Positions 1-21,009 of a stretch of 64,000 bases of DNA are shown in pieces. This DNA is from Streptomyces sp. NBC_01217 (GTDB lineage: Bacteria > Actinomycetota > Actinomycetes > Streptomycetales > Streptomycetaceae). A program made the translations under genes and the position numbers. The stretch is from assembly GCF_035994185.1 (NCBI RefSeq), contig NZ_CP108538.1, forward strand, positions 2,666,001 to 2,730,000, in the 5' to 3' direction. How positions within the stretch are numbered: position 1 is the stretch's first letter; each line of letters starts with the position of its first letter. The notes under the pieces are model-generated. The model did no database searches. It was not told where the DNA came from and saw only the letters and a program-made list of their open reading frames with translations.

Positions 1-1694
1 GCCGCGGCATGACCTACCGAGAGCTCGATCGGCGGGCCGACGCGCTGGGCCGTGAGTTGCGGGTCCGCGGGGCCGGCGGACGGCCCCCGGTGGCTTTGCT
101 GATGGAGAGGTCGCCGGAACTGATTGTGGCCATGCTGGCCGTGCTCAAGGCAGGCAGTGCCTACCTCGTGCTCAATCCGGGCGATCCGGACCAGCGGCTG
201 GCCGAGCTGGCGCTCGACGCGAACCTGAGCCTGACCCTCACGAGTGAGCAGCTCTCCGGCCGAGTCCCGGCCGGCCTCGACAGCGTGGTTCTCGACGGCC
301 TGCCGCTGTCGAACACCAGCACGCCGTCGACGCCGCGGGCGCGGCTCACCCCCGACCACCTGGCGTACGTCTGCTACACGTCGGGCTCAACGGGCGCCCC
401 CAAGGGTGTCGGCGTGACCCATCGCGGCGTGGTGCGGCTGGTCCGCGAGGCCGGCTGGATGAGCTTCGGTCCCGAGGATGTCGTGCTGCACGCCGCGTCC
501 CCGTCGTTCGACGCCTGCACGCTGGAGATCTTCGGAGCCCTGTGCAACGGCGGCCGACTGGTGATCCACCCGCCGGGCCGGATTGATCTTGAGGCGCTGT
601 CCCGGACCATCATCGACGAGGGGGTCACCGTGGTGAACCTCCCCACCGGCGTGCTCCACCAGCTGGTTCAGTCCCGGCTCCCGGCCTTCGCCGGCCTGCG
701 GCACGTCGTCACCGGTGGAGACGTGGCCTCGCCGGCCCTGGTCACCCGACTTCTGGAGGCCCATCCGCATCTGCTCTTCACCAACGGGTACGGCCCGACC
801 GAGAACACGACGTTCACCACCTGCTGGACCAGCCGGACGCCGCCCACGACCGACGATGTGCCGATCGGGCAGGCCGTGGACGGCACGCGGGTCACCCTGC
901 TCGATGCCGGTCTGCGCCCGGTAACGGACGGGACCGTGGCCGAACTCTACGCTTCGGGGGCGGGGTTGGCCTGGGGGTACCTTGGCCGTCCGGAGGCAAC
1001 CGCGGAGCGCTTCCTGCCCGATCCGGCCGGCCCTCCCGGTACCCGCATGTACCGCACCGGGGATCTGGTCCGGCAGCTGCCGGACGGTGGTCTGGGCTTC
1101 GTCGGGCGCGCTGACCGCCAGGTGAAGGTCCAGGGCTTCCGAATCGAGCCCGGATCGGTCGAAGCCGCGCTCGCGCAGCAGCCGGAGGTGGTCCAGGCCG
1201 CCGTGGTCGCCGAGCCGGGCCCTGACGGGCATCCACAGCTCATTGCGCACGTGGTGGCCGTCCCGGGCGCCGCCGACGACCTGGGCGCCGTGCTGCGCCG
1301 CAGGCTGCGGGACCGGCTGCCCGCGTACGGCGTTCCTCACGTCGTCCTGGTGCGTTCCGAGCTGCCCCTGGACCGCAACGGCAAGGTGGACCACGCGGCG
1401 CTGGCGACGCATAGACGTACGGTCCGCAACATCGGCACCGTGTACGTGCCGCCGTCGGACGAACTCCAGCGCGATCTGACGGAGTTGTGGGCGGAACTCC
1501 TGGACACCGAGCCGATCGGCATCGAGGACGACTTCTTCGACCTCGGTGGCCACTCGCTGCTCGCCGCCGAGCTGCTGGAGGCCCTTCACGCACGGTTCGA
1601 CGCGGACATCCCCGCGGCCACGCTGTATCTCCACTCGACCGTCGCAGAACTCAGCCTCGCAGTGCGCACGGCACAGCACAGGGAGGTGGCCTGA
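1..1694 (+). CDS. NRPS, adenylation-thiolation (A-T), 5' end outside window
   Basis: Activates an amino acid as its adenylate and loads it on its own carrier protein. The frame is open to the left edge and the first visible Met (position 9) falls inside A-domain core motif A1 (TYREL), so the N-terminus is missing. From that Met, core A3 YTSGSTGAPKGV starts near residue 123 and the carrier motif LGGHSLL has its phosphopantetheine Ser near 516. My hand-aligned specificity residues are D-A-L-N-V-G-G-T-F-K; the GGTF end resembles valine-type pockets, but Asn at position 278 does not, so the substrate is open. There is no condensation or release domain in the visible part. The next gene is a P450, 2 bp downstream. 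Paired A-T and P450 genes often beta-hydroxylate the tethered amino acid (as NikP1/NikQ and NovH/NovI do), which is an inference here. Confidence 0.92.
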   Translation, partial: RGMTYRELDRRADALGRELRVRGAGGRPPVALLMERSPELIVAMLAVLKAGSAYLVLNPGDPDQRLAELALDANLSLTLTSEQLSGRVPAGLDSVVLDGLPLSNTSTPSTPRARLTPDHLAYVCYTSGSTGAPKGVGVTHRGVVRLVREAGWMSFGPEDVVLHAASPSFDACTLEIFGALCNGGRLVIHPPGRIDLEALSRTIIDEGVTVVNLPTGVLHQLVQSRLPAFAGLRHVVTGGDVASPALVTRLLEAHPHLLFTNGYGPTENTTFTTCWTSRTPPTTDDVPIGQAVDGTRVTLLDAGLRPVTDGTVAELYASGAGLAWGYLGRPEATAERFLPDPAGPPGTRMYRTGDLVRQLPDGGLGFVGRADRQVKVQGFRIEPGSVEAALAQQPEVVQAAVVAEPGPDGHPQLIAHVVAVPGAADDLGAVLRRRLRDRLPAYGVPHVVLVRSELPLDRNGKVDHAALATHRRTVRNIGTVYVPPSDELQRDLTELWAELLDTEPIGIEDDFFDLGGHSLLAAELLEALHARFDADIPAATLYLHSTVAELSLAVRTAQHREVA

Positions 1695-1696
1695 TC

Positions 1697-2977
1697 ATGA
1701 CGGTCTCCGACGATTACCAGGCCACCGCAGTGGTCGGCGGCGGCTGCCCGTACCAGCGCGGGGGTGCGGACCTTGCTGACCCTGCCCTGTACAGCGGGCA
1801 GGATCCGCACGCCGTGTGGACCGCGCTGCGTCAGCACGACCCGGTGAGCCGGCATGTCCTGGATGGGACGCCTTACTGGTCGGTCACCCGTTACGCGGAC
1901 GCCGACGCAGTCCTGCGCAACCACGCGACGTTCACCTCCGAGCAGGGAACGCTGCTCTATCTGCTCGGCCGCGGTGACCCGGCAGGTGGCCACCAGATGG
2001 CAGCCACGGATCCGCCGCGTCACACGGCGCTGCGGGAGCCCCTTCAAAGGGCCCTGGCGGTCAAGCCGACCCTGGCTCGGCGTGAGCAGATCAGGCAGGT
2101 GGTCGTCGACCTGCTCGCGCCGCTGGCCGACGGAGGCGAGTACGACCTGGCCGCGGCCATGACCAGGCTCCCGATGGCCGTGGCCGGTGTGCTCATGGGA
2201 TTGCCGACGGCGGACTGGCCACGACTGATCGAACTGACCACGGCGTCGGTAGCGCCCGAGGACCCTCGATTCCACCAGGGCCGCGATCAGCGAGCGGTGC
2301 TCAACGCCTCCCACCGCGAGCTGTTCGCCTATTTCCACGACGTGGTCCGGCACCGCCGCGCCGCAGAACCGGGCGACGACCTGGTCAGCCTGTTGCTCGG
2401 CATGGAGCTCGATGGTCGTCGGCTGACGGTTGGTGAGGTGACGTCGAACTGCTACAGCCTGCTCCTCGGCGCCAATGTGACCACAGCGCAGGTGCCGGTG
2501 AGCGCGCTGGCCGAACTGATGGGGACTCCCGCACTCGACGACTGGGCGGACCACCCGGAGCTGCTTCAGAGCGGGGTCGACGAAGCACTGCGCTGGGCGA
2601 CGCCGACGACCCACTTCGTCCGCTACGCGACAACGGACGTGCTGCTGCGGGGGCGGCGGATCGAGGCGGGCGATGCGGTGGCGGTCTGGCTCGGCTCGGC
2701 CAACCGTGACGAGGAGACCTTCAAAGATCCCTTCACCTTCGATGTGCGCCGCAGGCCGAACAAGCACCTTGCCTTCGGTATCGGTCCGCACTACTGCGTG
2801 GGCCACACCGTGGCAAAAGTGACCCTACGGCTCCTGTTTGCCGAGCTGTTCAGTCGGTTCACCGACCTGGCGCCTTCCGGACCCGGCGAACGACTGCACT
2901 CCAACACTATCTACGGATGGACCAGCATGCCTATCACCGCGAAGCTCCGCAGCCACCGCCGACCTGCGGCCTACTGA
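1697..2977 (+). CDS. Cytochrome P450 (1 of 2), probable hydroxylase of a carrier-bound amino acid
   Basis: Class I bacterial P450, about 426 residues, the usual length. Signatures are the I-helix stretch LLLGANVTTAQV, the ExxR-region sequence EALRWATP and the heme loop FGIGPHYCVGHTV, whose axial ligand is Cys367. I chose the ATG two bases after the stop of the A-T gene: an upstream in-frame extension exists but lies wholly within the NRPS gene. Redox partners are not encoded nearby. Position beside a stand-alone A-T didomain suggests it oxidises the tethered aminoacyl group, often at the beta carbon; the actual site cannot be read from the sequence. Confidence 0.92.
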   Translation: MTVSDDYQATAVVGGGCPYQRGGADLADPALYSGQDPHAVWTALRQHDPVSRHVLDGTPYWSVTRYADADAVLRNHATFTSEQGTLLYLLGRGDPAGGHQMAATDPPRHTALREPLQRALAVKPTLARREQIRQVVVDLLAPLADGGEYDLAAAMTRLPMAVAGVLMGLPTADWPRLIELTTASVAPEDPRFHQGRDQRAVLNASHRELFAYFHDVVRHRRAAEPGDDLVSLLLGMELDGRRLTVGEVTSNCYSLLLGANVTTAQVPVSALAELMGTPALDDWADHPELLQSGVDEALRWATPTTHFVRYATTDVLLRGRRIEAGDAVAVWLGSANRDEETFKDPFTFDVRRRPNKHLAFGIGPHYCVGHTVAKVTLRLLFAELFSRFTDLAPSGPGERLHSNTIYGWTSMPITAKLRSHRRPAAY

Positions 2978-2992
2978 AACCAGGCGGAGGAC

Positions 2993-3808
2993 ATGAAGCC
3001 GATGCCGACTACCGGCCGACGCGCCCGTTGGTTCCCGAAGGAACCGCTTCCTGACGCACCCGCGCGCGTATTCCTGCTGCCCTACTCGGGCTGCGGCGCC
3101 TCGATGTACCGCCACTGGCCGACCGAGTACGGCGGTGTCAACTTCGTCCCGGTGCAGCTGCCGGGCCGGGAGAACCGCCTCAGAGAACAGCCCTTCAAGA
3201 GCTACCAGGAACTCGGGAGCGTGCTCTCCGAAGTCCTCTCTCCCTACCTGGACCGACCGTACGCCCTGTTCGGCCACTGCAGCGCGGCGCTCGCCGCCTA
3301 CGAGGTCGCGCGGCAGACCATCGACCGGGGCGGGCCCGCACCGACACGGCTGTACGTCTCCTCCGAGGTCGCCCCGCAGGACGGCCCCCACGGACGGCAC
3401 CTCCAGATGAACGACGACGAACTCGCAGAGGAGTTGCGCACGCTTGTGGTGCAGCTCGGCGGTACGCCAGTGCCGACGCTCATCGACATGACGCTCGGCG
3501 TGCTGCGGGGAGACATCGAGGTCAACCGGCGTTACCACGTGGCCGATCCGGTCAAGCTGCCTTGTCCCATCACGGCCATCGGCTGGAGTGGCGACATCGG
3601 CATGGAGCCCGAGCTGATGGGCGGCTGGTCCGCCTGCGGAAACAGTGAGCAGGTTGTCTTCGAGGGGGGCCACTACAGCTTCATGGAGGGCCCTGAGACC
3701 TTGCTGCGGCTCATGGTGGACGGGCTCGGGATGGGCCTGTCAGAACTCGACACTGCCGCCATGAGCGGCACCGAACGGGCTGTAGTAAGGGGTGGACTGG
3801 GATGCTGA
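2993..3808 (+). CDS. Type II thioesterase with Cys in the nucleophile elbow
   Basis: Alpha/beta hydrolase of the external NRPS/PKS thioesterase family (271 residues, typical), which normally clears misprimed or stalled carrier proteins. Family landmarks are LLPYSGCGASMYRHWP near the N-terminus, the elbow FGHCSAALAAYEVAR, an acidic-turn region GWSGDIGMEPE and the C-terminal His in FEGGHYSF. The elbow is unusual: the canonical GHSMG reads GHCSA, so the catalytic Ser is Cys96 and the second Gly is Ala. Cys nucleophiles are known in some NRPS TE domains that form strained rings, so it may be more than an editor. A second in-frame ATG lies 9 bp downstream. The stop overlaps the start of the carbamoyltransferase gene by 7 bp. 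Confidence 0.9.
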   Translation: MKPMPTTGRRARWFPKEPLPDAPARVFLLPYSGCGASMYRHWPTEYGGVNFVPVQLPGRENRLREQPFKSYQELGSVLSEVLSPYLDRPYALFGHCSAALAAYEVARQTIDRGGPAPTRLYVSSEVAPQDGPHGRHLQMNDDELAEELRTLVVQLGGTPVPTLIDMTLGVLRGDIEVNRRYHVADPVKLPCPITAIGWSGDIGMEPELMGGWSACGNSEQVVFEGGHYSFMEGPETLLRLMVDGLGMGLSELDTAAMSGTERAVVRGGLGC

Positions 3809-5376
3809 TTCTTTCGTTCAAAGAAGGTCACGACGGGGCGGTCTCGGCGATTGAGGACGGGCGGCTGCTCTTCTCGCTGGAGGCCGAGAAGGACTCGTTT
3901 CCGCGCTATTCCTCGCTCACCGCTGATGTGTTGCTCAACGCGGTGGAACGGCTCGATCGGCTGCCGGACATCGTGGCAGTCGGCGGTTGGGTGAAGGGCG
4001 ACCGTGCCTCCAACCCACCTTCCCGGACTGGATACTTCGGCGTGGGTGAGGGCTCGGTCTCAGATGTGGCCGGCCGGTTCCTCGGTCGCGACGTACGCAT
4101 CTTCTCGTCCTCGCACGAGCGGTCACACATCATGGCGGCCTACGGCATGTCGCCGATCCCGGCCGGCCAGCCCGCCTACTGCCTGGTCTGGGAGGGGAAC
4201 ATCGGTTCCTTCTACCGCATCGACGAGGCCGGCAGGGTGACGCACCTGCAACAGGTGATGTCGGATCCGGGCAACAAGTACGCCTTCCTGTTCGGCCTGG
4301 CCGACCGCGGTCTGGCCAAGAGCAAGGGCACGCTGCGTCTCCAGGACGCCGGCAAGCAGATGGCCCTGACCGGTTTCGCCAACCCTGCGGCCATGACAGA
4401 CAGCGAGCGCGAGGTCATCGAGTTCATCCTTGCGCAGGGCGAGATCGTGGCCGAACTGGGTAAGGAGGACATGACCTGGTCGCCCTTCCACAACATCGGC
4501 CTTGAGTCACAGGAATACAAGAACCTGGCCGCCAAGTTCTCCGACGCGATCTTCGACCGGTTCCACTCGTATGCGAAGCAGCATCTCACCGAGGGGCTTC
4601 CGCTCCTGATCTCGGGCGGCTGCGGCCTCAATTGCGAGTGGAACCGGCGTTGGAGCGAGAGCGGCCTCTTCTCCAGCGTCTTCGTACCGCCGTGCCCCAA
4701 CGACAGCGGCTCGTCGCTGGGGACGGCCATCGACGCCCAGCACCACTACACCGGTACCGCGGCGGTGGAATGGGACGTCTACGCCGGCGCCCCCTTCGTC
4801 GAGGACACGCCCTTCGACCCGGCCCAGTACGACACCCGACCGCTCGACTACGCGGAGGTGGCGAAGTTCATCGCTGACGGCAACATCATCGGCTGGGCCC
4901 GCGAACGTTGGGAGGTGGGCCCCCGGGCGCTGGGAAACCGATCCATCCTGGCCGCTCCGTTCACCGCGGATACGACCGCGCGGCTCAACAAGATCAAGCA
5001 GCGGGAGGGCTACCGGCCCATCGCCCCCATATGCCTGGAAGAGGACGCCCCGCGCTGGTTCCGCGGCCCGATGCCCGACCCCTACATGCTCTACTTCAGC
5101 AGCGTTCTGTCCGAGGACCTCAAGGCCGTGACACATGTGGACGGAACGGCCCGTACGCAGACCGTCACAGCGGAGCAGAACCCGGGGATCGCCGCACTCC
5201 TCACCGCGTTCCGCGACATCACCGGATTCAGCGTGCTGTGCAACACATCGTTGAACTTCTCCGGTACGGGGTTCATCAACCGGACGAGTGACCTGATCCG
5301 GTACGGCGAAGAGCACGGGCTCGACGGCTATGTGGTCGGAGAGACGTTCGTGACTCGGCGCATACCAAAGATCTGA
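3802..5376 (+). CDS. O-carbamoyltransferase, NodU/CmcH/TobZ family
   Basis: Transfers a carbamoyl group from carbamoyl phosphate, through a carbamoyl-adenylate, to a hydroxyl of a natural product. The 524-residue protein has the Kae1-like N-terminal half, with SFKEGHDGAVSAIEDG at the start and the metal-binding HxxxH in SSHERSHIMAAYG (His105/His109). Next come the nucleotide-binding region GGCGLNCEWNRRW and PNDSGSSLGTA, and the C-terminal carbamoyltransferase motif EVGPRALGNRSILAAP. The start ATG overlaps the thioesterase stop (ATGCTGA), so translation is coupled. This family makes O-carbamates, unlike the ornithine-transcarbamylase-type VioL of viomycin. The acceptor is probably a hydroxyl made by a P450 or the 2OG oxygenase of this cluster (inference). 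Confidence 0.93.
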   Translation: MLILSFKEGHDGAVSAIEDGRLLFSLEAEKDSFPRYSSLTADVLLNAVERLDRLPDIVAVGGWVKGDRASNPPSRTGYFGVGEGSVSDVAGRFLGRDVRIFSSSHERSHIMAAYGMSPIPAGQPAYCLVWEGNIGSFYRIDEAGRVTHLQQVMSDPGNKYAFLFGLADRGLAKSKGTLRLQDAGKQMALTGFANPAAMTDSEREVIEFILAQGEIVAELGKEDMTWSPFHNIGLESQEYKNLAAKFSDAIFDRFHSYAKQHLTEGLPLLISGGCGLNCEWNRRWSESGLFSSVFVPPCPNDSGSSLGTAIDAQHHYTGTAAVEWDVYAGAPFVEDTPFDPAQYDTRPLDYAEVAKFIADGNIIGWARERWEVGPRALGNRSILAAPFTADTTARLNKIKQREGYRPIAPICLEEDAPRWFRGPMPDPYMLYFSSVLSEDLKAVTHVDGTARTQTVTAEQNPGIAALLTAFRDITGFSVLCNTSLNFSGTGFINRTSDLIRYGEEHGLDGYVVGETFVTRRIPKI

Positions 5377-5434
5377 GCACTTGATCCCTCGGGCCGAAAA
5401 CCCGATTCCCCCGACCCGTCGTAGGAGCACAGAA

Positions 5435-6274
5435 ATGCAGCAGCAGACAATGAACAAAGTATCCGGCCTCCAGGCGGACAGCGAGTTCTTCCGCTTCGAG
5501 GAACGGGACGAGCTCGACTACCAACTGGTGCTTGACGTCCTGCACGGCAGGCGGCTGGGAGTCATCTTCCGCAATGTCATACCGTCGCCCGCGCGGAAGG
5601 AGCTGACCGACCGGTTCTGGCGCAGTCCGGCGCTGGAGCACCGGGAGGGCGAGCCCTCGCACTACGTGGGCGCTTACCACTGGAACAAGTCGACTACGGC
5701 CTACCTGGATGAGGCGGCCGAGGTCATCAAGGACGTCAAGGCAGTGATCGACACGCCGGACTCGCCCTATACGACCTTCCGTCAGGGCGTGGCGCAGGCT
5801 CTGGCGCAGGAAGGCGCAACCCTTCGGGTGGCAGAGAAGGACGGACGCTCGGCGTGCCCGGCACTGATCCGGGCCTGGGACCAGCCGGGGGAGTTCTCGC
5901 TGGATCCGCACGAGGACTCGGCCCAATGCCAGGATCCGCGACAGGTGGGCTTCGAGATCCAGAACGTCATCCAACACAGCATCTGTGCTGTGAACATGTG
6001 CATCGAGCACACGGCGGGTGGGCGTCTGGTCGTCTGGAACATCCGCCCGGACAACGAGGCCCGGCGGGCCCTGGGGATCGAACTGACCGGCATTCCTTAT
6101 CCGTCGGAATCGCTCGCGGAGTTCGACGAAATCCGCCTGGACATACGTGAGGGCGATATCTACGCCTTCAATGGGGCCTTCGTGCACGCGGTCGACGCCA
6201 ACACGGGGAACCGGTCCACGGTGTCGTACATCATGGGCTTCACCGGCGCGCACTCGGTCGTGAGCTGGACGTAG
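5435..6274 (+). CDS. Non-heme Fe(II)/2-oxoglutarate-dependent oxygenase, amino acid hydroxylase candidate
   Basis: The 279-residue protein has a plausible facial triad: His159-x-Asp161 in DPHEDSAQC and His251 in GAFVHAVDA, with Arg260 nine residues later as the expected 2OG carboxylate ligand. Asp (not Gly) at the second position predicts hydroxylation or desaturation rather than halogenation. I chose ATG 5435 because AGGAG lies 7 bp upstream; a longer frame from 5381 has no ribosome site. It is shorter than, and does not look like, the clavaminate-synthase-type arginine hydroxylase VioC, but because a VioD-like cyclase is encoded downstream it is the best candidate in the window for making 3-hydroxyarginine. 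It may instead belong to the small BesD-like amino acid hydroxylase group; I could not test this. Confidence 0.75.
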   Translation: MQQQTMNKVSGLQADSEFFRFEERDELDYQLVLDVLHGRRLGVIFRNVIPSPARKELTDRFWRSPALEHREGEPSHYVGAYHWNKSTTAYLDEAAEVIKDVKAVIDTPDSPYTTFRQGVAQALAQEGATLRVAEKDGRSACPALIRAWDQPGEFSLDPHEDSAQCQDPRQVGFEIQNVIQHSICAVNMCIEHTAGGRLVVWNIRPDNEARRALGIELTGIPYPSESLAEFDEIRLDIREGDIYAFNGAFVHAVDANTGNRSTVSYIMGFTGAHSVVSWT

Positions 6275-6360
6275 TCGACGACACGAGACCAATGAGGTAG
6301 CCAGCGCAAGCGGCGCCCGGCACCCAGAACGCACCCGGCATTCGCCGTCCGGTTCCCCCT

Positions 6361-6413: not shown

Positions 6414-6452
6414 GCATCCTCCGCCACACGGTCCGACACGAGGAAGAAAAAC

Positions 6453-11173: not shown

Positions 11174-12426
11174 TGGACCAGCCCATTACTTCGGTCGAGG
11201 ACCGCACCATCGCCGCCTTCGACAGCCACGATCCCGCGCTGTCGCGGAACCCCTACCCCACGTACGAGCAGCTGCGTTCGCGATGCCCTGTCACCTGGAG
11301 CCCGTCCTGGGGTGGCTTCTGGATGGCCTCCGGACACGCGGAGGTCGCGTCAGCCGGCCGGGACAAGGCGTTCTCCACCGGCCAGGTCCTTCCCGACGGA
11401 ACCCTCCAAGGCGTCACCATTCCTCCGCTGGGTCAGACCGGACGGCTCGTCCCGCTCGAACAGGACGCGCCGGAGAGCATCAAGTACCGCAGGCTGCTGG
11501 CCTCGTTCTACTCGGCCGGCCGGGTCAGGGAACGGCTGCCGGAGCTGCGTCGGCTCGCACGGGAGAGCGTCGACGCGGTCATCAGTGACGGCTCGTGCGA
11601 CATCGTGCAGGCTCTCACCCTGCGCGTGCCGGCCATTGTCACCATGCGCGACATCGGGCTGCCGGATGAGCGGTGGGCGGAGGTCGACGCGCTCCTACAC
11701 AAAGCGCTACTGGCCGCACCACACGACATGGCCGCCGCCCGGGCCCATGGACAGGAGATCACCCTGGAGATCCTTGAGCAGGTCGAGCAGCACCGTGAGG
11801 ACGGCACCGGCGGCGGACTGATCCCGCATCTGCTGGCTGCCACCGTTGACGGCCGGCCGGTTGACGACGGGGACATTTTGTCGATCCTGTATCTGCTCCT
11901 GCTCGGTATCGACCCCACGTCCACGCTGACCGCGACGGCGCTGCTCCACCTCACACAAGACCAGAAACTCAGAAAACGGCTCACCTCCGATCCGTCCCTG
12001 ATTCCGCAGGCCGCCGACGAATTTCTACGCTGGATGTCCCCTGTCCAAGGCACCAGCCGCACAGTCACCACCGACACCTCGCTCGGCGGGACCACTCTGC
12101 GCCCCGGAGAGCGGGTGTTTCTGTCCTGGGCGGCGGCGAACCGCGACCCGTCCGCCTTCGCGGAGCCCGACGCCGTCCTCATCGACCGCGAGAACCGCGA
12201 TCACCTGGCCTTCGGCGCAGGCCCGCACTACTGCCTGGGTGCCGCGCTGGTGCGCGCCATGTTCAGCGCCATGTTGGAACAGGTCCTCACCCGGATGCCC
12301 GACTACGTCGTCGCCGATCCGGATGGCATCAGCTACTTCCCCGACCTGAGTTCGGTCTACGGCGTCACCGCCCTGCCCCTCACCTACACGCCAGGTGAGC
12401 CGACCCGCATCACGGATCCGGAGTAA
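11173..12426 (+). CDS. Cytochrome P450 (2 of 2), tailoring oxidase
   Basis: P450 of 417 residues starting at a GTG that overlaps the MFS stop. It shows the I-helix stretch LLLLGIDPTSTLTAT, the ExxR-like region DEFLRWMSP and the heme loop FGAGPHYCLGAAL with Cys354. The I-helix reads GIDPTS where most P450s have AGxDTT, and this differs from the first P450 of the cluster, so the two enzymes probably act at different positions. It lies 5 bp before the C-A-T-TE NRPS gene. No ferredoxin gene is present nearby. Substrate, carrier-bound residue or finished peptide, is unknown. Confidence 0.9.
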   Translation: MDQPITSVEDRTIAAFDSHDPALSRNPYPTYEQLRSRCPVTWSPSWGGFWMASGHAEVASAGRDKAFSTGQVLPDGTLQGVTIPPLGQTGRLVPLEQDAPESIKYRRLLASFYSAGRVRERLPELRRLARESVDAVISDGSCDIVQALTLRVPAIVTMRDIGLPDERWAEVDALLHKALLAAPHDMAAARAHGQEITLEILEQVEQHREDGTGGGLIPHLLAATVDGRPVDDGDILSILYLLLLGIDPTSTLTATALLHLTQDQKLRKRLTSDPSLIPQAADEFLRWMSPVQGTSRTVTTDTSLGGTTLRPGERVFLSWAAANRDPSAFAEPDAVLIDRENRDHLAFGAGPHYCLGAALVRAMFSAMLEQVLTRMPDYVVADPDGISYFPDLSSVYGVTALPLTYTPGEPTRITDPE

Positions 12427-12431
12427 AACAG

Positions 12432-15400
12432 ATGAGCCAGCATGGCCCGTCCATGTCCCCCCTATCGCCGGAGAAACTTCGGCTGCTGAGGCGGCAGCGC
12501 GGAGCTCGCGACACCGACCCGGCCCTGTTGCGGGCAGGACTCTCCGGTGCTGCACACGTGCCGGCGTCCATGGCACAACGTGCGCTGTGGTTCCTGGACC
12601 GGGTCATGGAGCCGAGTGACCGGTCCGCCTACAATCTCGGGAAGGCGATGGTGCTGCGCGGCCCCCTCGAACCGAAGTTGTTCGAGCGTTGCCTGACGGA
12701 GATCGTCCGCAGGCACCAGGTGCTGCGGACTACCTTCACCGCCGAAGACGGCACTCCCATGCAGGTGGTCCACGACTCATGCCCGGTCCGGCTGCCGGTG
12801 CGAGACCTCAGCGCGCTCCCGCAGGCGGAGCGGGCCGCGGCGGTGCGCCTGCTCGCCGAGGAGGAGCTGTCCCGCCCGTTCGACCTGGCCCAGGACCCAC
12901 TCTTCCGCGCGCTGCTGGTGCGCTCGGCCCCGGCTGAGCACACCCTGGTCCTGGTCTTCCACCACGCGGTCTTCGACGGCTGGTCGTTCGGGATCTTTTT
13001 CGACGAACTGATCGTGCTGTACGAGGCGTTCGGGGCGGGCTGCCCCTCGCCGCTCGCCGAACCGACGTTGCAATACACCGACTACTCCGTATGGCAGCAG
13101 ACGCGGTTCGACCAAGGTGCCCTGGCAGAAGGGCTCGCCTACTGGCGACGTGCCCTGGCCGGCGCCCCTGGGCTGCTTGCCCTGCCGACGGACCGGCCCC
13201 GGCCGGCTACGGCTTCCTACACCGGTGCGCAGTTCGCCTTCATTCTGCCTCCCGAATTGACGGCCGCCGTCCGTTCACGGGCAGCCGCGGAGGGCTGCAC
13301 CCTTTACATGGTGCTGCTCGCTGCCTACCAGGTGCTGCTGGCCCGCCTGTCGGGCCAGCAGGATGTCCTGGTGGGATCCCCCATTGCCGGTCGTTCGCGC
13401 CCCGCGTTGGAAGGGCTGGTCGGATTCTTCGTCAACACCGTGGTGCTCCGCGGGGAAGTCGCGGACGAGCTCACTTTCCGGGAGTACCTGGGCCGGACCC
13501 GGCAGACGGTGCTTGAGGCATTCGAACACCAGGACGTGCCCTTCGAGCTTGTCGTCGAGGAGCTCAAGCCGGAGCGGACTCTGAGCCACAACCCGCTGTT
13601 CCAGGCTGTGTTCACCCTCCAGAACACCGCCGCCGAGAGCTCTGTGCAGCTTCCCGGCATCGAGGTCGCCCCCTGCGCGGTGACCACCCGCGACGCCAAG
13701 TTCGACCTGGTCCTGGACGTTGTGGAGGACGGCGACACGCTGCGGTGCGAGATCGGCTACCGCACCGACATGTTCGATCCGGAGACCGTGGAGCGGTTGA
13801 GTCACCGCTATGCGCAGCTCCTCGCACAGGTCCTCGCTGACCCGGAGCGGGCTTTGGGAAACGTGGACCTGCTACTGCCCGGGGAGGTGTCGGAGCTGAT
13901 GCGGTACGGCCGGGGACCGGCCGTACCGGGCGCGCCCGCCACGCTGCACGGCCTGATCGAGGAGCAGGTGCACCGGACACCGGACGCCCCAGCCGTGCTC
14001 TGCGACGGCATCGAGACGACCTATGCGGAACTGAACACCCGGGCGGAGCGGCTGGCCCGGTTCCTCCGAGCACGCGGCGTCGGACCCGAACGCGTAGTTG
14101 CCGTGCAGCTGCCCCGCTCGGTAGACGCCGTCATCGCCTTCCTGGCGGTACTCAAGGCCGGCGGCGCGTACCTGCCGCTGGACCCCTCCCACCCGGCACA
14201 ACGCATTGCGTTCATGCTGCAGGATGCCCAGCCCGTCTGCGTGCTCACCGACCGCGACCTGGCAACGGCGGACGACCTGTGCGAGCCGGAGGTGCCATCG
14301 GCCGAGGCCGCCATCGCGCACCCGGCGTACGTTCTCTACACTTCCGGCTCCACGGGGCAGCCCAAGGGTGTCGTCGTCCCGCACTCGGCTGCCGTCAATC
14401 TGGTGCGCTGGACCGTGTCCGAGTTCGGGGAAGACCAGTTGTCGCGGGTACTGTGCGCCGCCTCATTCTCCTTCGACGCCTCGGTCTTCGAGCTATTCGC
14501 TCCCCTGGCCTGCGGCGGCCGCGTGGAGATCGTGCGGGATGTCCTCGCGCTTGCCGAACGCGACCCGCAGGCCGGGGGAACGACGCTGATCAGCGGGGCG
14601 CCGTCGGCAATGACGGTACTCGCAGCACAGCGCCGGCTGCCGGCCGGCACCACCACCGTGGTGAACATCGGCGAGGCCCTTCCAGGAGCGCTGATCGAGG
14701 AGGTTCTCCAAGTCCTGCCGAAAGCACGGGTCTTCAACGGCTACGGGCCCACCGAGACCACGGTGTGGGCAGCACACTGGTCCACCGACGCCCCCGTGAG
14801 CGGGCTCCCGCCAATCGGTCAGCCGGTGGGCGGAGACCGCCTCTACGTCCTGGACCCCGGCCTCGACCAGGTGCCGACCGGAGTAGCGGGAGAGCTCCAC
14901 GTGGCGGGCGCAGGACTGGCACGTGGCTATTTGAACCGCCCAGAGCTCACCGCCGAACGTTTCCTCCCGGACCCGTACGCCGGTCCGGGCGAACGGATGT
15001 ACCGAACTGGCGACCTGGCCCGCTGGCGGTCGGACGGCCTGCTCGAATACCTCGGCCGCACCGACCATCAGGTGAAGATCCGGGGATACCGCGTCGAGCT
15101 CGGAGAGGTCGAGGGGACGCTGCGCAGCCACCCGGCGATACGGCAGGCCGCGGTCCTCGCACGTGGGGACGTACCCGGGGAACTCCAGCTGGTGGCCTAT
15201 ATCGTCCCCGGCACCCCGGCCGGGCCTCCGCCCGTGTCCGAGCTGCGCGGCTGGCTCAGCCGGACACTGCCCGCGTACATGGTGCCGGCCGCCTTCGTGA
15301 CACTGGCCGAGCTGCCCCTCACCGATAATGGGAAGCTCGACCGTGCGAGGCTGCCTGCGCCGACGGCCGACCGGCCGGCGAGGAAGACCGCCGAACGGCC

Positions 15401-16472
15401 AAGCACCCCGCACGAGCGGCAGGTCGCGGACGTCTGGGCAGAGATCCTGCACCGGGACGACATCGGCCTGCACGACAATTTCTTCGACCTCGGCGGCAAC
15501 TCCCTGGCAGCCATGCGGATGGTGGCCCGCATCGAGCAGGCGGGCGGCCGGGCCATCCGGCCCGCCTCCGTCTTCCAGGCACCCACGGTCGAGCAACTGG
15601 CCGCTCTGCTGAGTGAAGAGGACAAGGGCGCCACAGGCAGCGCTTCACCTCTCGTGACGTTGTGCGGCAGCGGTGCGGGGGCTCCCGTCTTCCTCGTCCA
15701 CCCCCTGGGCGGCAACATCCTGTGCTACGCCGGGCTGGGCGACGAACTGGGTCCGGACCGGCCCGTCCACGGTCTGGTCGCACGTGGTCTCAGCCACGAC
15801 GAAGTGCCACGCGAGCGCGTCGAGGCCATGGCAGCCGCCTACCTGGCCGCGCTGCCGAAAGCCGCGACCGACCGTCATTTCCTCCTCGCGGGATGGTCGA
15901 TGGGTGGTGTCGTCGCCCTGGAGATGGCCCGGCAGTTCCTCCAGTCGACGGGTCGGCCCCTCCCGGTGGTGATGATGGACAGCTACCCGCCGCAGCCAAC
16001 GGCCCACCTCCATGGCAGCACCGGCAGCCGGCAGGACGAGGTCGCGCTGCTGGCCGACTTCGCCGCGGACTGGGGACGCAGCCTCGACCTCGACCTTTCA
16101 CATACCGACCTTGCGGAGATCGGGGTGCGCGCCGGCCTGGAGTGGTTGCTGGCACGTGCCAAAGCCGCCGGTGTGCTCTCACCCGACGACGACCTGGTCC
16201 TCCTGCACCGCCTGTTCCGAACCCACGCGGCGCATGCCGTCGCGCTGGACCACTACCGGCCCGCCACCCCCTACCCGGGACCGGTCACCTTGCTCTCCGC
16301 ACGCTCCGGGCGGGTGGGCGACGCCGTGGATCACGGTTGGTCCCGGCTGGTGACCGGGCCACTCGGCGTCGTGGAGGTGCCAGGAGACCACTACAGCATC
16401 CTGCGCGAACCCCAACTCCCCGACACTGCCGCAGTCCTGCGGGCACAACTGAAGGCGAGCGACCCCTCATGA
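12432..16472 (+). CDS. NRPS termination module, C-A-T-TE
   Basis: Adds one residue and releases the chain. Order: C (about 35-470, HHAVFDG at 177-183), A (about 490-1000, YTSGSTGQPKG near 636), T (LGGNSLAAM, Ser1024) and thioesterase (about 1070-1346, GWSMGG with Ser1156; His1320 in GDHYS). The A4 sequence FDASVFELF keeps the alpha-amine Asp; my hand-read code is D-A-F-S-V-I-G-V-W-K, suggesting a hydrophobic or small residue, with low confidence because the loop around position 278 (ISGAPSAM) aligns ambiguously. The only integrated TE in the window, it should act last, although a C-A-T gene lies downstream, so gene order is not assembly order. The stop overlaps the next gene (ATGA). Confidence 0.94.
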   Translation: MSQHGPSMSPLSPEKLRLLRRQRGARDTDPALLRAGLSGAAHVPASMAQRALWFLDRVMEPSDRSAYNLGKAMVLRGPLEPKLFERCLTEIVRRHQVLRTTFTAEDGTPMQVVHDSCPVRLPVRDLSALPQAERAAAVRLLAEEELSRPFDLAQDPLFRALLVRSAPAEHTLVLVFHHAVFDGWSFGIFFDELIVLYEAFGAGCPSPLAEPTLQYTDYSVWQQTRFDQGALAEGLAYWRRALAGAPGLLALPTDRPRPATASYTGAQFAFILPPELTAAVRSRAAAEGCTLYMVLLAAYQVLLARLSGQQDVLVGSPIAGRSRPALEGLVGFFVNTVVLRGEVADELTFREYLGRTRQTVLEAFEHQDVPFELVVEELKPERTLSHNPLFQAVFTLQNTAAESSVQLPGIEVAPCAVTTRDAKFDLVLDVVEDGDTLRCEIGYRTDMFDPETVERLSHRYAQLLAQVLADPERALGNVDLLLPGEVSELMRYGRGPAVPGAPATLHGLIEEQVHRTPDAPAVLCDGIETTYAELNTRAERLARFLRARGVGPERVVAVQLPRSVDAVIAFLAVLKAGGAYLPLDPSHPAQRIAFMLQDAQPVCVLTDRDLATADDLCEPEVPSAEAAIAHPAYVLYTSGSTGQPKGVVVPHSAAVNLVRWTVSEFGEDQLSRVLCAASFSFDASVFELFAPLACGGRVEIVRDVLALAERDPQAGGTTLISGAPSAMTVLAAQRRLPAGTTTVVNIGEALPGALIEEVLQVLPKARVFNGYGPTETTVWAAHWSTDAPVSGLPPIGQPVGGDRLYVLDPGLDQVPTGVAGELHVAGAGLARGYLNRPELTAERFLPDPYAGPGERMYRTGDLARWRSDGLLEYLGRTDHQVKIRGYRVELGEVEGTLRSHPAIRQAAVLARGDVPGELQLVAYIVPGTPAGPPPVSELRGWLSRTLPAYMVPAAFVTLAELPLTDNGKLDRARLPAPTADRPARKTAERPSTPHERQVADVWAEILHRDDIGLHDNFFDLGGNSLAAMRMVARIEQAGGRAIRPASVFQAPTVEQLAALLSEEDKGATGSASPLVTLCGSGAGAPVFLVHPLGGNILCYAGLGDELGPDRPVHGLVARGLSHDEVPRERVEAMAAAYLAALPKAATDRHFLLAGWSMGGVVALEMARQFLQSTGRPLPVVMMDSYPPQPTAHLHGSTGSRQDEVALLADFAADWGRSLDLDLSHTDLAEIGVRAGLEWLLARAKAAGVLSPDDDLVLLHRLFRTHAAHAVALDHYRPATPYPGPVTLLSARSGRVGDAVDHGWSRLVTGPLGVVEVPGDHYSILREPQLPDTAAVLRAQLKASDPS

Positions 16473-17593
16473 GGCTTCCACACGCGCCACTCGAAGACTG
16501 GATGCGCGACTTCTACTTCGACACGAAGATCGATCTGGGCAGCAGCGGCGTTCAACCGTGGAGTCTGTCGGAGCTCCGCCGACTGCTGGGCATCCACCCC
16601 GCAGAACTGGACGCGCTCACCTTTGACGACAGCGAATCGTACGGGGGCCGTGAGCTGCGCGAGGCGTTGGCGGTCCGGTTCGGCGTCGGCGACACGGACC
16701 GCATCATGGCCACTCACGGATCCACCGAAGCAATCTTCGTAGCCATGAACGCCCTGCTCACGTCCGGCGACGAGGTCGTGGTCGTGGACCCTGCCTATCA
16801 TTCGCTGCGCTCAGTCGCCGAGGCCATCGGCTGTCGGCTCAAGCGCTGGCAGCTCCGTCCGGAGGACGGCTTCCGGCCCAGCCTGGACAACCTGCGCCCA
16901 CTGCTCACCAGCCGCACCCGCATGGTGGTCGTCAACTTCCCCCACAATCCGACCGGCGCGACCCTCACCCGCGACCAGTTCGACGAATTTCTCGACCTGG
17001 TTGCCGACCACGGTGCCTATCTCCTCTGGGACGGCGCCTTCACCGAGTTGGTCTACGAGACGCCGCCGTTGCCCGACCCTGCACTGCGTTACGAACGGTG
17101 CGTGTCGATCGGCACAATGTCCAAGGCCTACGGGCTGCCCGGGACACGTATCGGCTGGTGCTTCGCCGCACCGGAGATCCTGGAGACATTTGTTCCGCTG
17201 CGCGACGCCATCAGCATCTGCCTGTCCCCGCTGACCGAGTTCTTCGCCGCCCGAGCCGTCTCACAGGCCGACCGGATCCTTGACGTGCGGAAGGCCCAGG
17301 CAGCCCGCAACCGACAACAACTGGCCGACTGGGTCCAGCGCGATTCCGACCTGGTGTCATGGACCCAGCCCGCCGGCGGCTGCACGGCCTTCCCCGCCTT
17401 CGCCGGCATCGAGGACACCGAGGACCTCTGCCGCGAGCTGGGCATCCACCACGACGTCCTGCTCGTTCCGGGATCCGGCTTCGGCCATCCCGATCGGGTG
17501 CGCCTGGGGTTCGGCGGCGACGAGGTCACATTCGTGGAGGGACTGGAGCGGTTGCGTCTGGTGCTGCGAGCACGCCGAGGTGCCTGGTCATGA
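16469..17593 (+). CDS. PLP-dependent enzyme, capreomycidine synthase (VioD) family
   Basis: Fold-type I aminotransferase-like protein of 374 residues. Its N-terminus (APLEDWMRDFYFDTKIDL, then SSGVQPWSLSEL) and blocks such as VVNFPHNPTGA, LLWDGAFTELV and TMSKAYGLPGTRIGWC closely follow VioD of viomycin and its streptothricin counterpart as I remember them. Lys219 in the SKAYG motif is the expected Schiff-base lysine. VioD removes the 3-hydroxyl of (3S)-3-hydroxyarginine and closes the guanidine onto C3, giving capreomycidine; the same reaction is inferred here. Sitting between two NRPS genes, with ATGA overlaps on both sides, it should supply a dedicated building block. A generic aminotransferase role is the main alternative. 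Confidence 0.85.
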   Translation: MRLPHAPLEDWMRDFYFDTKIDLGSSGVQPWSLSELRRLLGIHPAELDALTFDDSESYGGRELREALAVRFGVGDTDRIMATHGSTEAIFVAMNALLTSGDEVVVVDPAYHSLRSVAEAIGCRLKRWQLRPEDGFRPSLDNLRPLLTSRTRMVVVNFPHNPTGATLTRDQFDEFLDLVADHGAYLLWDGAFTELVYETPPLPDPALRYERCVSIGTMSKAYGLPGTRIGWCFAAPEILETFVPLRDAISICLSPLTEFFAARAVSQADRILDVRKAQAARNRQQLADWVQRDSDLVSWTQPAGGCTAFPAFAGIEDTEDLCRELGIHHDVLLVPGSGFGHPDRVRLGFGGDEVTFVEGLERLRLVLRARRGAWS

Positions 17594-20500
17594 CTGAAAC
17601 AAACGCGGCCGAGCCGCTGGACACCGGGATGACACAGACGGGCACCGAGCGGCTGCAGGCCCGGCTGGAAGACCTGTCCGAGGAACAGCGCACCCTGCTC
17701 AAACGCCGCCTTCGGGAGCGACGGCAGCAGCTGCGCGCCCAAGAGCCACAGATCTGCGAAACCTCAGTGGCCCAACAGGGTCTGTGGTTCCTGGACCAGG
17801 TCAAGCAGAACGACCCGTTCTACACACTTGCCTGGCGCATCGACCTGGCAGGCCCGTTGGACATCAGTGCCCTGACAGCGGCCGTCAACGACGTCGTGTC
17901 GCGTCACGGCGCCCTGCGCACCCGGTTCGGCGACCGGGACGGCAAGCCCGTGCAGATTGTGGAGCCCGTCTCCGCGATGCGTGTTCCGGTGACCGATCTG
18001 CGCCGGTCGCACGAGCCCGCACGAGAGGCTGTCGTAGGCGCCGCCTGTGCCCGGCTGGTCTCCGAGCCGTTCGACCTGGCCAAGGGCCCCATTTTCCGCG
18101 CCGAGGTCCTGCGGGTCGCGGACGACCGCCACGTGCTCGTGCTGCTGGTGCACCACATCGTCTTCGACGGACGGTCCATGGACATCGTGATGCGAGAACT
18201 GGCCAACGCCTACAACACCGCGCGAGCCGGTCGGCCGCTGCCGGTACGCCCAGCCGAGCAGTACGCGGACTTTGCCGCCTGGCAGGATCGCCACCTCAGC
18301 AGTGGGCGGACGGACCAACTGCTCAGCTTCTGGCGCGATCAACTGCTCGACGCCCCTGAGCTGCTGCCGTTGCCGATCAGCCGGCCGCGTCCGGCCGAGC
18401 AGTCCTACGCGGGCGCGGAACAGCGCATGCGGCTGTCGGTCCCGCTCAGCGCCGGCCTGCACGCCCTCGCCCGCTCCGAACGCAGCACGCTGTTCATGAC
18501 GATGCTCGCCGCCCTCCAGCTTCTCCTCATGCGCTACTCGGGACGGCCCGACGTCAGCATCGGCACACCTGTAGGCGGCAGGTTCCACAGTGCGTTCGAG
18601 GAGTCAGTGGGGTACTTCGTGAACACTCTGGTGCTGCGGGGTCAGCTGGAGGGCGACCCGACCTTCCGCGCATTCCTGCAGCAGACCAGGCGTTCCTGCC
18701 TGAGCGCCTATGACCACCAGGACCTGCCGTTCGACCGGCTGGTAGAGGAGCTGCGCCCGCAGCGCTCGCTGAGCCACAACCCTCTGTACCAGGTCACGCT
18801 GGAGTCCCACGGAGAGGACCGCTCCGGGCAGCGCCCGCAGTTCGCGGGGCTGAAGACGACCCACATGGACAACATCGACGTGGCTCGGTCGAAGTTCGAC
18901 CTGTCCTTCACCGCCGCCCAGGCGGGCGACGAGGTCGAGATCGCCGTGGAGTACGCCACCGACCTCTTCGACACGGACACCATCGAAAGGCTGATGGGGC
19001 ACTTCCACCGCCTCCTCGAAGCAGTGGCCGCGGATCCGGACGAGCCTGTCAGCCGGATCACGGCTCGCATGGTGTCCGAGGCAGAGCGCAGGCAGCTCGA
19101 CCGGTGGGCCCGCCCCGCCGCCACTCACGCGGACGAGGCCGGCGGCGGCACAGTGCTCGACCTCATCGCCGGCCAGGTGGCAGCAGTTCCCCAGGCTGTT
19201 GCACTCGTGTCGGGCGACCGCACGGTGAGCTATGCGGAACTGGACCGAATGTCCGGCCGGATCGCCGCCGGGCTCGCAGACGCGCACGTGCGACCGGGCT
19301 CTCTCGTGGCCGTGGCGGCAGGCCGGTCGGCCGAGCTGGTAGCAGCGCTGCTCGGTGTGTGGAAGCACGGTTGCGCGTACCTCTCACTGGACGCCGCCGG
19401 ACCGGCGGCAAGGGCCGCCGCCATAGTGGCGGACGCACGTGCCGACGTGGTTCTGACCACGGAGCTGGACGGGTCGTCCCATTGGCCCGTTGGCATCCGG
19501 GTGCTCCCGCTGGCCGCCCTGGCAGCGGCAGCCGATGACCCGAGCGCACGGACTGCCCCGCCAAATGCCTCGGTCGGGCAGAGCAACCTTGCGTACGTCC
19601 TCTACACCTCGGGATCGACAGGAGCCCCGAAGGGAGTGGAGGTCTCCCATGGTGGACTCGCCGGCTATGTCGGCTGGGCCGCGGCCGAGTACTGCCCAGT
19701 GGCACCGCCGACAGCCCCACTGCACACTGCCGTCGGCCTCGACCAGACGGTGACCAGCCTGTGGCTGCCCCTCGCCAAGGGTGGCACGCTGCACCTCATC
19801 GACGAGTCCGGGTCCGTGTCCCGGATGGCAGGCACGCTCGCGGGCCAGGCGGCCTGCAACTTGGTGCGGCTGACCCCGGCACAGCTCGACGAGCTCTGCC
19901 GGCATCTGCCCTCCGGGTCTCTGGCAGGTCGGGACATCTGCTTCGTCATCGGCGGCGAAGTGCTGGAGGCCGACCTCGAACGGCGGCTCTTCGATCTCGC
20001 ACCGGACGCCAGGGCCGTCAGCGAGTACGGGCCGACCGAGGCGGTCGTCGGCTGCTGCACGCTGACCGGGACAGTCGGTGACGCTCCGGAGGACCGGTCG
20101 ACCATGCTGATCGGACGTCCCATCGCAGGGGCCGAGTTGCGCGTCCTGGACGCACACGGCTGGCCGGTGCCGACCGGTACGCCTGGCGAACTCCACATCG
20201 GCGGCAGCGTCCTCGCCCGCGGATACCTACGTGACCCGGTACGTACAGCGGCCGCCTTCGTGCCCGATCCCTATGCCGCGCGCGCCGGATCCAGGCTGTA
20301 CCGAACAGGGGACCTCGTGCGTCATCTGGCTGACGGACGCCTTGAGTTCCTCGGACGAAGTGACCGCAAGTTGAAGGTCGGCCACCAGCTGATCGAGCCG
20401 GCGGAGACAGAGGCGGCGCTGCGCGCGGTGCAGGGCGTGCAGACGGCCGCAGTCGAATCCCAGCGGGACGACCGGGGCCAGGATCACCTCGTGGGATATG

Positions 20501-21009
20501 TCACCGGCGAGGTGATGGCAACCGCCGTGCGCGACGCGGTCGCCGAGTTGCTGCCTGAGGCCATGGTGCCGACTGTGATCTTGGTGCTGGACACCCTGCC
20601 ACTCACCCGGCACGGCACAGTGGACCGGACCGCGCTGCCCGTACCGGAGAGCCTGCGGCCGTCAGGCACCGTCGCCGGTGCGGCCGCTGATCCGGTCGTG
20701 CAACAGGTCGTCGCCACGCTGTGGTCGTTGATCCTCGCTTGCGACGCCATGGGCCCTGACGACAACTTCTTCATCGAGGGCGGGCATTCACTGTCCGCCG
20801 TCCGCGCGGTTGGGCTGATCAGGGAGGTGTTCCAGATCGAGGTGCCGGTCGCTGCGCTGTTTCACGCGCCCACACCGGCGCTGTTCGCCGCCCAGCTGCA
20901 AGAACTCGCCGGTGACGAAGTCGACGTCGCGGAGGCGGCGGCAGAGGTGCAGGCAGTGCTCGAACTCTCCGACCAGGAAACCGCGGTCCAGCTCAGCGCG
21001 CTGGGATGA
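17590..21009 (+). CDS. NRPS elongation module, C-A-T
   Basis: C (about 55-490; HHIVFDG at 188-194), A (about 520-1020; YTSGSTGAPKG near 672) and T (IEGGHSLSA, Ser1067), then a short acidic tail and no TE. The first 50 residues are a charged helix (LEDLSEEQRTLLKRRLRER) that may be a docking element. In A4 the sequence is VGLDQTVTSLW; my hand-read code is D-Q-T-R-V-G-E-V-G-K. The alpha-amine Asp is kept, and Glu at GrsA position 322 would suit a cationic side chain, making this the best candidate for loading the capreomycidine-type residue from the VioD-like enzyme encoded just before it (ATGA overlap). That assignment is inference. Confidence 0.93.
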   Translation: MTETNAAEPLDTGMTQTGTERLQARLEDLSEEQRTLLKRRLRERRQQLRAQEPQICETSVAQQGLWFLDQVKQNDPFYTLAWRIDLAGPLDISALTAAVNDVVSRHGALRTRFGDRDGKPVQIVEPVSAMRVPVTDLRRSHEPAREAVVGAACARLVSEPFDLAKGPIFRAEVLRVADDRHVLVLLVHHIVFDGRSMDIVMRELANAYNTARAGRPLPVRPAEQYADFAAWQDRHLSSGRTDQLLSFWRDQLLDAPELLPLPISRPRPAEQSYAGAEQRMRLSVPLSAGLHALARSERSTLFMTMLAALQLLLMRYSGRPDVSIGTPVGGRFHSAFEESVGYFVNTLVLRGQLEGDPTFRAFLQQTRRSCLSAYDHQDLPFDRLVEELRPQRSLSHNPLYQVTLESHGEDRSGQRPQFAGLKTTHMDNIDVARSKFDLSFTAAQAGDEVEIAVEYATDLFDTDTIERLMGHFHRLLEAVAADPDEPVSRITARMVSEAERRQLDRWARPAATHADEAGGGTVLDLIAGQVAAVPQAVALVSGDRTVSYAELDRMSGRIAAGLADAHVRPGSLVAVAAGRSAELVAALLGVWKHGCAYLSLDAAGPAARAAAIVADARADVVLTTELDGSSHWPVGIRVLPLAALAAAADDPSARTAPPNASVGQSNLAYVLYTSGSTGAPKGVEVSHGGLAGYVGWAAAEYCPVAPPTAPLHTAVGLDQTVTSLWLPLAKGGTLHLIDESGSVSRMAGTLAGQAACNLVRLTPAQLDELCRHLPSGSLAGRDICFVIGGEVLEADLERRLFDLAPDARAVSEYGPTEAVVGCCTLTGTVGDAPEDRSTMLIGRPIAGAELRVLDAHGWPVPTGTPGELHIGGSVLARGYLRDPVRTAAAFVPDPYAARAGSRLYRTGDLVRHLADGRLEFLGRSDRKLKVGHQLIEPAETEAALRAVQGVQTAAVESQRDDRGQDHLVGYVTGEVMATAVRDAVAELLPEAMVPTVILVLDTLPLTRHGTVDRTALPVPESLRPSGTVAGAAADPVVQQVVATLWSLILACDAMGPDDNFFIEGGHSLSAVRAVGLIREVFQIEVPVAALFHAPTPALFAAQLQELAGDEVDVAEAAAEVQAVLELSDQETAVQLSALG

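Follow-up and report, generated by a model that had tools for sequence, protein, structure and literature searches.

Cyclic arginine residues underlie the antibiotics viomycin, capreomycin and streptothricin. In the viomycin/capreomycin (tuberactinomycin) pathways the residue is capreomycidine, made by the VioC/VioD route, and the nonribosomal peptide synthetase (NRPS) includes a carrier position that lacks its own adenylation (A) domain (PMC12400406; this and the other papers given here by PMC number are cited to the extent of their excerpted text). The present study concerns a cluster of about 41 kb in Streptomyces sp. NBC_01217 (genome size 9.03 Mb), which crosses the left end of a 64,000-nucleotide stretch of contig NZ_CP108538.1, positions 2,666,001 to 2,730,000 (G000:C1:2666001-2730000), referred to below as the window. 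Judged from its sequence, this NRPS cluster most likely makes a four-unit peptide capped by an α-hydroxy or α-keto acid derived from capreomycidine, a reading to which we assign a probability of roughly 0.5. Its more interesting part is a recurring cassette that lies mostly outside the window and comprises a class-V aminotransferase (AT5), a D-2-hydroxyacid dehydrogenase (D2HDH) and an A domain with serine at position 235 (S235).

The initial annotation had described an uncharacterised locus whose gene set is unlike that of the known VioD pathways, and this difference holds for both kinds of locus with which we compared it. The tuberactinomycin-like locus of genome G018 has, in the 20 kb seen, no match to AT5, D2HDH, an S235 A domain or the two cytochromes P450 of our cluster (P450a and P450b), and a canonical tuberactinomycin cluster was rejected on the first three of these; carbamoylation in the tuberactinomycins we take to be of another type. 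The streptothricin-type loci (L027, on an S. globosus plasmid, and G006; the label is our own, from the gene set) share VioC, VioD, an A domain with a pair of glutamates in its code (the EE pair) and a NodU-type carbamoyltransferase (~30% identity), but they have aspartate at position 235 (D235) in that A domain, sugar-type genes and separate condensation (C) and A proteins, none of which is matched here and which led us to reject a streptothricin cluster, and they give no match to P450a, P450b, AT5 or D2HDH. Biffamycin and cyclofaulknamycin were also considered and dropped, no match being seen in the excerpts of PMC13285481 and PMC8399532.

No compound with this gene set, and no capreomycidine-derived hydroxy acid, was found in the literature among the matches listed, MIBiG lying outside the scope of the comparison; the term uncharacterised stands so far within those bounds, and the starter residue is probably a building block not recognised before. 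If the reading is correct, it would add a class of residue not described so far together with a readable sequence signature for finding the peptides that contain it, the cassette would explain a recurring, unassigned A-domain code, and genome miners could predict the new residue. It is quite improbable, in our judgement, that the cluster is that of an already described compound which we failed to recognise. The S235 motif is widespread, occurring in 21 of the 120 A2 homologues listed (of 6908), so that a known product may exist, and our comparison did not extend to MIBiG or antiSMASH; against this stand the lack of a matching gene set or residue among those same literature matches and the purely generic annotation, naming no product, of the copy of the cluster on a plasmid of Streptomyces tendae 139.

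The predicted capreomycidine route and the starter unit

Genes were called with a script that uses GC content at third codon positions (GC3) and ribosome sites, and products were named from Pfam and NCBIfam scans; curated cut-offs are those of the NCBIfam models, and Pfam calls lie above gathering where stated. VioD (16469..17593, + strand) scores 489.9 bits against the capreomycidine synthase model TIGR03947 (cut-off 390.9) and 255.2 bits against the model for the enduracididine cyclase GntC (cut-off 415), and on these two scores enduracididine was set aside as an alternative to capreomycidine. Residues E9, S25, S26 and the pyridoxal phosphate (PLP) lysine are kept in VioD (7/7 proteins aligned); the glutamate E9, the tandem serines and the PLP lysine are common to GntC, VioD and OrfR (PMC10367076). 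The earlier description of an NRPS locus of capreomycidine type that also encodes an O-carbamoyltransferase is supported, VioD having both a score above the cut-off and the catalytic residues.

Arginine would be hydroxylated by T-2OG (-5265..-3496, - strand), a carrier domain (T) fused to a 2-oxoglutarate (2OG) oxygenase; coordinates to the left of the window are window coordinates with a negative sign, to which 2666000 is added to give the contig position. T-2OG scores 456.4 bits against the model for the enduracididine β-hydroxylase GntD (cut-off 345) and 369.2 bits against that for VioC (cut-off 418.6), and its best PDB match is 6daw, followed by the L-arginine β-hydroxylase 4m23 and CmnC. 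We call it VioC/GntD-like because it passes the first model and misses the second, with PDB matches of this kind. From these families and the conserved residues we infer that T-2OG may hydroxylate arginine at C3, after which VioD would cyclise the product to capreomycidine. A second VioC-like 2OG oxygenase, TauD2 (PF02668, 49.0 bits), is encoded at -1472..-480 (- strand).

The loading module A2-T-C (6453..9821, +) carries the code SAEEVGVAT, with Ser235, Glu239 and Glu278, at the nine core specificity positions, which were read throughout by alignment to GrsA (1amu). The aspartate at position 235 contacts the α-amine of the substrate (PMC11253843, PMC11355689), and A domains for α-hydroxy or α-keto acids replace it, in the published cases with aliphatic residues (PMC11253843, PMC10949194); in A2, D235 is likewise replaced. 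The A-T-C starter proposed earlier was found as a module, but its substrate would probably be a capreomycidine analogue without the α-amine, as S235 suggests, and not capreomycidine itself.

A survey of 65 A domains from 19 loci, from which one unread domain of G276 and two cut fragments (G203, G039) were left out, gave nine with S235, 55 with D235 and one, a degenerate domain in G805, with valine. The S235 domains occur one per locus in 9/9 loci that have a linked AT5, namely those of this genome, S. tendae, S. calvus, Fontibacillus, G039, G117, G878, G950 and G805, and all nine also contain VioD, a VioC-like oxygenase and D2HDH, the last being 31-83% identical to ours apart from the self-match. 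Where VioD occurs without AT5 (six loci: Embleya, S. globosus, G006, G018, G038 and G051), D2HDH was missing in 6/6 cases (tblastn, E 1e-15; loci of 15-41 kb, so that distant genes would be missed), and S235 was likewise absent among the A domains read in 6/6. Since G039, G117, G878 and G950 are close relatives, the nine loci amount to about five lineages, one of them in the Firmicutes. The AT5 search alone led to G117, G878, G950 and G805, at a time when the association was already known from other loci, and all four fitted. AT5 at this level of similarity is rare, being found in 1/394 class genomes and 4/392 genus genomes (E 1e-95) and in 5/343 order genomes (E 1e-90), in samples that overlap and each of which counts our own genome.

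AT5 (-6486..-5350, -) has serine/alanine-glyoxylate aminotransferases as its kin, and D2HDH (-3012..-2092, +) matches PF02826 with 172.1 bits. Their co-occurrence with VioD suggests that AT5 would take the α-amine off capreomycidine and that D2HDH would reduce the resulting keto acid, and A2, with its S235 and E239/E278, would then load the acid onto its own carrier. The EE pair also occurs together with D235 (DVEE...) in A domains of the VioD loci of S. globosus, G006 and Embleya and in a second module in G039, G117, G878 and G950, and the simplest reading of the codes is that the two glutamates may hold the cyclic guanidinium while S235 marks the loss of the α-amine. On this basis α-hydroxy (or α-keto) capreomycidine is the candidate starter. 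That VioC, VioD, the class-V aminotransferase, D2HDH and the S235/EE A domain form a conserved cassette, shared by Actinobacteria and Firmicutes, for making and loading an α-hydroxy acid analogue of capreomycidine is a proposal we hold tentatively, at a little under even odds. The activities of AT5, D2HDH and A2 are directly testable with purified enzymes.

Several observations, besides the VioC cut-off that T-2OG misses, weigh against this starter. Residue 235 of A2 is serine and not the aliphatic Ala, Gly or Ile of the published cases (as excerpted); a module of keto-acid type that keeps Asp235 has been proposed for hectoramide (PMC10949194). In Fontibacillus and in loci of the G039 type the D2HDH copies reach only 30-35% identity, the G805 code reads SAEG in place of SAEE, and the substrate of AT5 is a prediction from gene context. 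The 20 kb seen of G018 contain no EE code, so the pair is not the sole solution for capreomycidine.

Two other accounts of the starter were considered. In the first, which we regard as unlikely, the cluster makes an ordinary capreomycidine peptide, A2 taking capreomycidine despite S235, and AT5 and D2HDH serve something else, for example glyoxylate or amino donor metabolism or another hydroxy acid. VioD and the VioC/GntD-like enzyme are indeed present, the kin of AT5 would suit such a role, and D235 is not indispensable at least in McyG, whose A domain binds Phe though it has Val at 235 (PMC11253843). This account is opposed by the joint presence of AT5, D2HDH and S235 in 9/9 AT5 loci and their joint absence from 6/6 other VioD loci, and by the loci of the G039 family (G039, G117, G878, G950), in which A domains with S235 (SAEE) and D235 (DVEELGVVT) stand together beside genes for the VioC-like oxygenase, VioD, AT5 and D2HDH, suggesting two substrates. 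Loci of this type are well suited for a side-by-side comparison of S235 and D235 substrates. The second account, which seems to us distinctly improbable, has as the starter another guanidine acid without an α-amine, either the unreduced α-keto acid or a chain-shortened acid of the 4-guanidinobutyrate type; S235 and two acidic pocket residues would suit any such guanidinium acid, and A domains for keto acids typically lose D235 too (PMC10949194), but D2HDH in 9/9 loci points to reduction, and a pathway to an acyclic acid would have no need of VioC and VioD.

The second residue, its proposed transfer and the later steps

The first gene of the initially annotated run encodes a free-standing module, A1-T (..1694, +; its gene extends some 150 bases beyond the left end of the window, with an uncertain start codon), and its code DALNVGGTF is Val-like except that tryptophan 278 is replaced by asparagine. 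The Val domains of SrfA-B and GrsB read DAFWIGGTF (PMC11355689), and W278 is kept in the Val-like counterparts of A1 in S. calvus, Fontibacillus and G276, the Fontibacillus residue being judged from the ungapped motif VTTGWFTS since a glutamate in one alignment is a gap artefact. N278 was read in this genome, S. tendae, G399 and G203, and in all four a carbamoyltransferase lies in the same gene run; S. calvus has W278 despite a divergent carbamoyltransferase (34%) nearby. The pairing suggests, with partial support, that N278 may make room for a carbamate on the side chain.

The carbamoyltransferase (3802..5376, +) scores above gathering for both PF16861 (185.2 bits) and PF02543 (80.1 bits), which places it among the O-carbamoyltransferases of the NodU/TobZ/GdmN family, and its PDB matches include the novobiocin carbamoyltransferase, TobZ and GdmN; with 264.2 bits it stays below the cut-off of 1000 of the NodU nodulation protein model NF041651. 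Homologues occur in 15/392 genus genomes (E 1e-100). Among 12 further carbamoyltransferase loci, that of G203 has an A1-type domain and those of G141, G290 and G069 have other NRPS genes, and in the remaining 8/12 no NRPS was found within the 20-kb stretch. Five similar loci (L108-L112), with carbamoyltransferases 68-69% identical and a shared gene set, show no NRPS gene over the 20 kb covered; some proteins of the shared set resemble, by eye, a sugar-type aminotransferase and a phosphatase. Another NRPS family, in G399 (L047-L048) and G203 (L106), carries an A domain with the code DALNLGGVF beside the same carbamoyltransferase, together with the HilA-like oxygenase described next in G399. At L113 (G290) the carbamoyltransferase stands beside homologues (53-57%) of the SbnA/SbnB-like proteins of S. 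calvus and an NRPS module, which suggests a diaminopropionate peptide.

Downstream of the carbamoyltransferase lies a HilA-like 2OG-Fe(II) oxygenase (5435..6274, +; motifs PHEDS and FVHA) of the aliphatic amino acid hydroxylase type, whose 102.8 bits against the isoleucine dioxygenase HilA model NF041274 (cut-off 500) make it a relative only, and which has no match among PDB sequences. It adjoins the carbamoyltransferase in 3/11 HilA genomes (E 1e-40), namely this one, S. tendae and G399; among the other eight, the G396 contig ends on the relevant side. P450a (1697..2977, +; PF00067, heme motif FGIGPHYCVG) matches the PDB entries 4l0e (242.0 bits), an ancestral CYP125 (CYP125MRCA, 241.6 bits) and 3mgx (187.3 bits), of which we take 4l0e to be P450sky and 3mgx to be OxyD, both presumably hydroxylating carrier-bound amino acids, and P450a is a probable aminoacyl β-hydroxylase of this sort. 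A1 would thus load a Val-like residue on its free-standing carrier, where P450a would β-hydroxylate it, and its side chain would probably be hydroxylated by the HilA-like enzyme and carbamoylated by the carbamoyltransferase. This is the weakest step of the scheme, and it is further strained by the practical equality of the CYP125 match with that of 4l0e and by the small number of loci in which N278 and the carbamoyltransferase are paired.

The protein at 3002..3808 (+; PF00975), earlier called a type II thioesterase, does have the thioesterase fold, with RifR, a type II thioesterase, among its PDB relatives, but in alignment with its relatives its motif GHCSA has cysteine where the nucleophile serine is expected; on that replacement a hydrolytic enzyme was judged improbable. 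Cysteine was found in 6/6 copies linked to P450a (this genome, S. tendae, S. calvus, Fontibacillus, G276 and G805); among the other copies read, it recurs in two (G038 and G805), and four have serine. CmaE-like proteins and LgnA shuttle aminoacyl groups between carriers, and in the CmaE/SyrC type the shuttle serves a free-standing module bearing a modified tethered residue (PMC8748450). As far as nucleophile and gene context show, the arrangement here is similar, with a cysteine nucleophile beside a free-standing A-T module and a tailoring oxygenase, and the protein is probably an aminoacyl shuttle. We presume that SyrC and CmaE use cysteine. Two facts speak against so direct a reading: the Cys copy of G038 occurs without P450a, and LgnA, a Ser-type thioesterase II, also shuttles (PMC8748450), so that cysteine by itself is not decisive. 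In the AT5 locus of G805, three genes of the thioesterase fold, two of Cys and one of Ser type, accompany a free-standing carrier and the degenerate A domain, whose code is VRVDLGGSY.

Where the residue would be delivered is suggested by the carriers. Among the 21 S235 homologues, 13 end in A-T-C-T and eight in A-T-C, the extra carrier having no A domain, and the T-2OG carriers of this genome and S. tendae group with these A-less carriers (support 99/97, from 72 columns of short domains); the carrier that accepts the first condensation has thus apparently been relocated to the arginine oxygenase. A1-T as direct acceptor of the A2-T-C chain was considered, and the carrier phylogeny favours the T-2OG carrier over it, without proof. 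The Cys protein would then carry the finished residue to T-2OG, where the C domain of A2-T-C would join it to the starter. An off-line hydroxylation and shuttle arm, with the acceptor carrier on the arginine oxygenase, would make an unusual assembly-line layout.

The module C-A4-T (17590..21009, +) has the code DQTRVGEVG; its S. tendae counterpart reads DLTKVGEVG, which we take to be an Asn code, and the module would add an Asn-like residue. C-A3-T-TE (12432..16472, +; code DAFSVIGVW, thioesterase motif GWSMG) would add the last, unassigned residue and release the peptide through its thioesterase (TE), for export by the predicted MFS exporter (9818..11173, +; PF07690, 55.4 bits). Between exporter and termination module lies P450b (11173..12426, +; PF00067), with relatives at 55-66% identity in S. 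calvus, G039, G117 and G878.

Left of AT5, on the minus strand, the cluster contains A_up (-9092..-6663), an A-domain protein without carrier whose code DGLTVAGIN we take, with low confidence, to be aromatic-like, an aromatic amino acid hydroxylase (-9956..-9228; PF00351, 101.6 bits; metal motifs FHDVVGHLP and FYWFTTETG) that scores under the curated cut-offs for phenylalanine 4-hydroxylases, and a pterin-4a-carbinolamine dehydratase (-10266..-9931; PF01329, 82.4 bits). With A_up there are five substrates for four carrier positions, which tells against a single four-unit product and invites a different account, in which two clusters overlap, the minus-strand aromatic-hydroxylase and A_up genes making another product and the rest the peptide. 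Among the loci compared, the hydroxylase is present only in this genome and in S. tendae, and the other seven AT5 loci lack it and have only generic A-domain matches (27-37%) to A_up. In S. tendae the hydroxylase and A_up nevertheless adjoin AT5 and T-2OG with an unchanged gene order, and we give the two-cluster account a low probability beside that of a single peptide cluster.

Extent of the locus and its counterparts

The initial annotation confined the locus to positions 1-21009 of the window. All enzyme classes it named there on the plus strand were found by the Pfam and NCBIfam scans, and the cluster genes adjoin with short gaps or overlaps and have GC3 of coding type; the extent needs revision, since the left edge lies at about -10.3 kb, some 10 kb beyond the window, and regulators follow on the right. 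A cluster bounded by the window is ruled out by the left-flank sequence and by synteny with S. tendae. The total of ~41 kb counts the regulators, among them one of SARP type; the biosynthetic genes account for ~31 kb.

The S. tendae 139 copy (~211-248 kb of plasmid NZ_CP043960.1) was found by a tblastn search of plasmids with VioD (88.5%). Three of 1448 plasmid records were opened; four distant VioD relatives (L014-L017, 23-35% identity) were left out of the comparison. Its biosynthetic proteins are 78-91% identical to ours and stand in two blocks of the same order, the first with T-2OG, AT5, A_up and the aromatic hydroxylase, and the second with MbtH (matched stretch here -3252..-3037, +; 89%), D2HDH, TauD2, A1-T, P450a, the thioesterase-fold protein, the carbamoyltransferase, the HilA-like oxygenase, A2-T-C, the MFS exporter, P450b, C-A3-T-TE, VioD and C-A4-T. 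Because the same set is found there, the cluster limits are fixed independently of our own gene calls, and because it recurs in the same order within each block, a chance association of the genes is no issue. Apart from its A4 code, the plasmid cluster differs in having the BTAD/SARP regulator near the aromatic hydroxylase, whereas in this genome it lies on the right side, and the pterin dehydratase was not found in it; all other parts recur.

A sister cluster in S. calvus T3018 (G416 C52, ~656-694 kb) shares A2 (SAEE), A1-T, P450a, the Cys thioesterase-fold protein, the VioC-like oxygenase, VioD, AT5, D2HDH, MbtH, TauD2, P450b, the MFS exporter and the BTAD regulator. It differs in having A-T-C-T for A-T-C, no HilA-like oxygenase, the divergent carbamoyltransferase mentioned above and two homologues of SbnA/SbnB (of diaminopropionate type, by our own reading of the sequences). 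With its five A domains and these two SbnA/SbnB-like proteins, a related product that contains diaminopropionate is likely.

To the right of the biosynthetic genes, both on the minus strand, are a LuxR-type regulator (21817..22596; PF00196, 60.9 bits; 72% identical to the copy in the S. tendae cluster) and the SARP/BTAD pathway regulator (27729..30881; PF03704, 132.9 bits; 79%). Between them a Mutator-family transposase occupies 25917-27191 (-) as two adjoining open frames and is apparently broken, and at 23676-25325 (+) the C-terminal part of an open frame scores about at the cut-offs for SAM hydroxide adenosyltransferase domains (29 against 26.3 bits and 24.4 against 25.5 bits).

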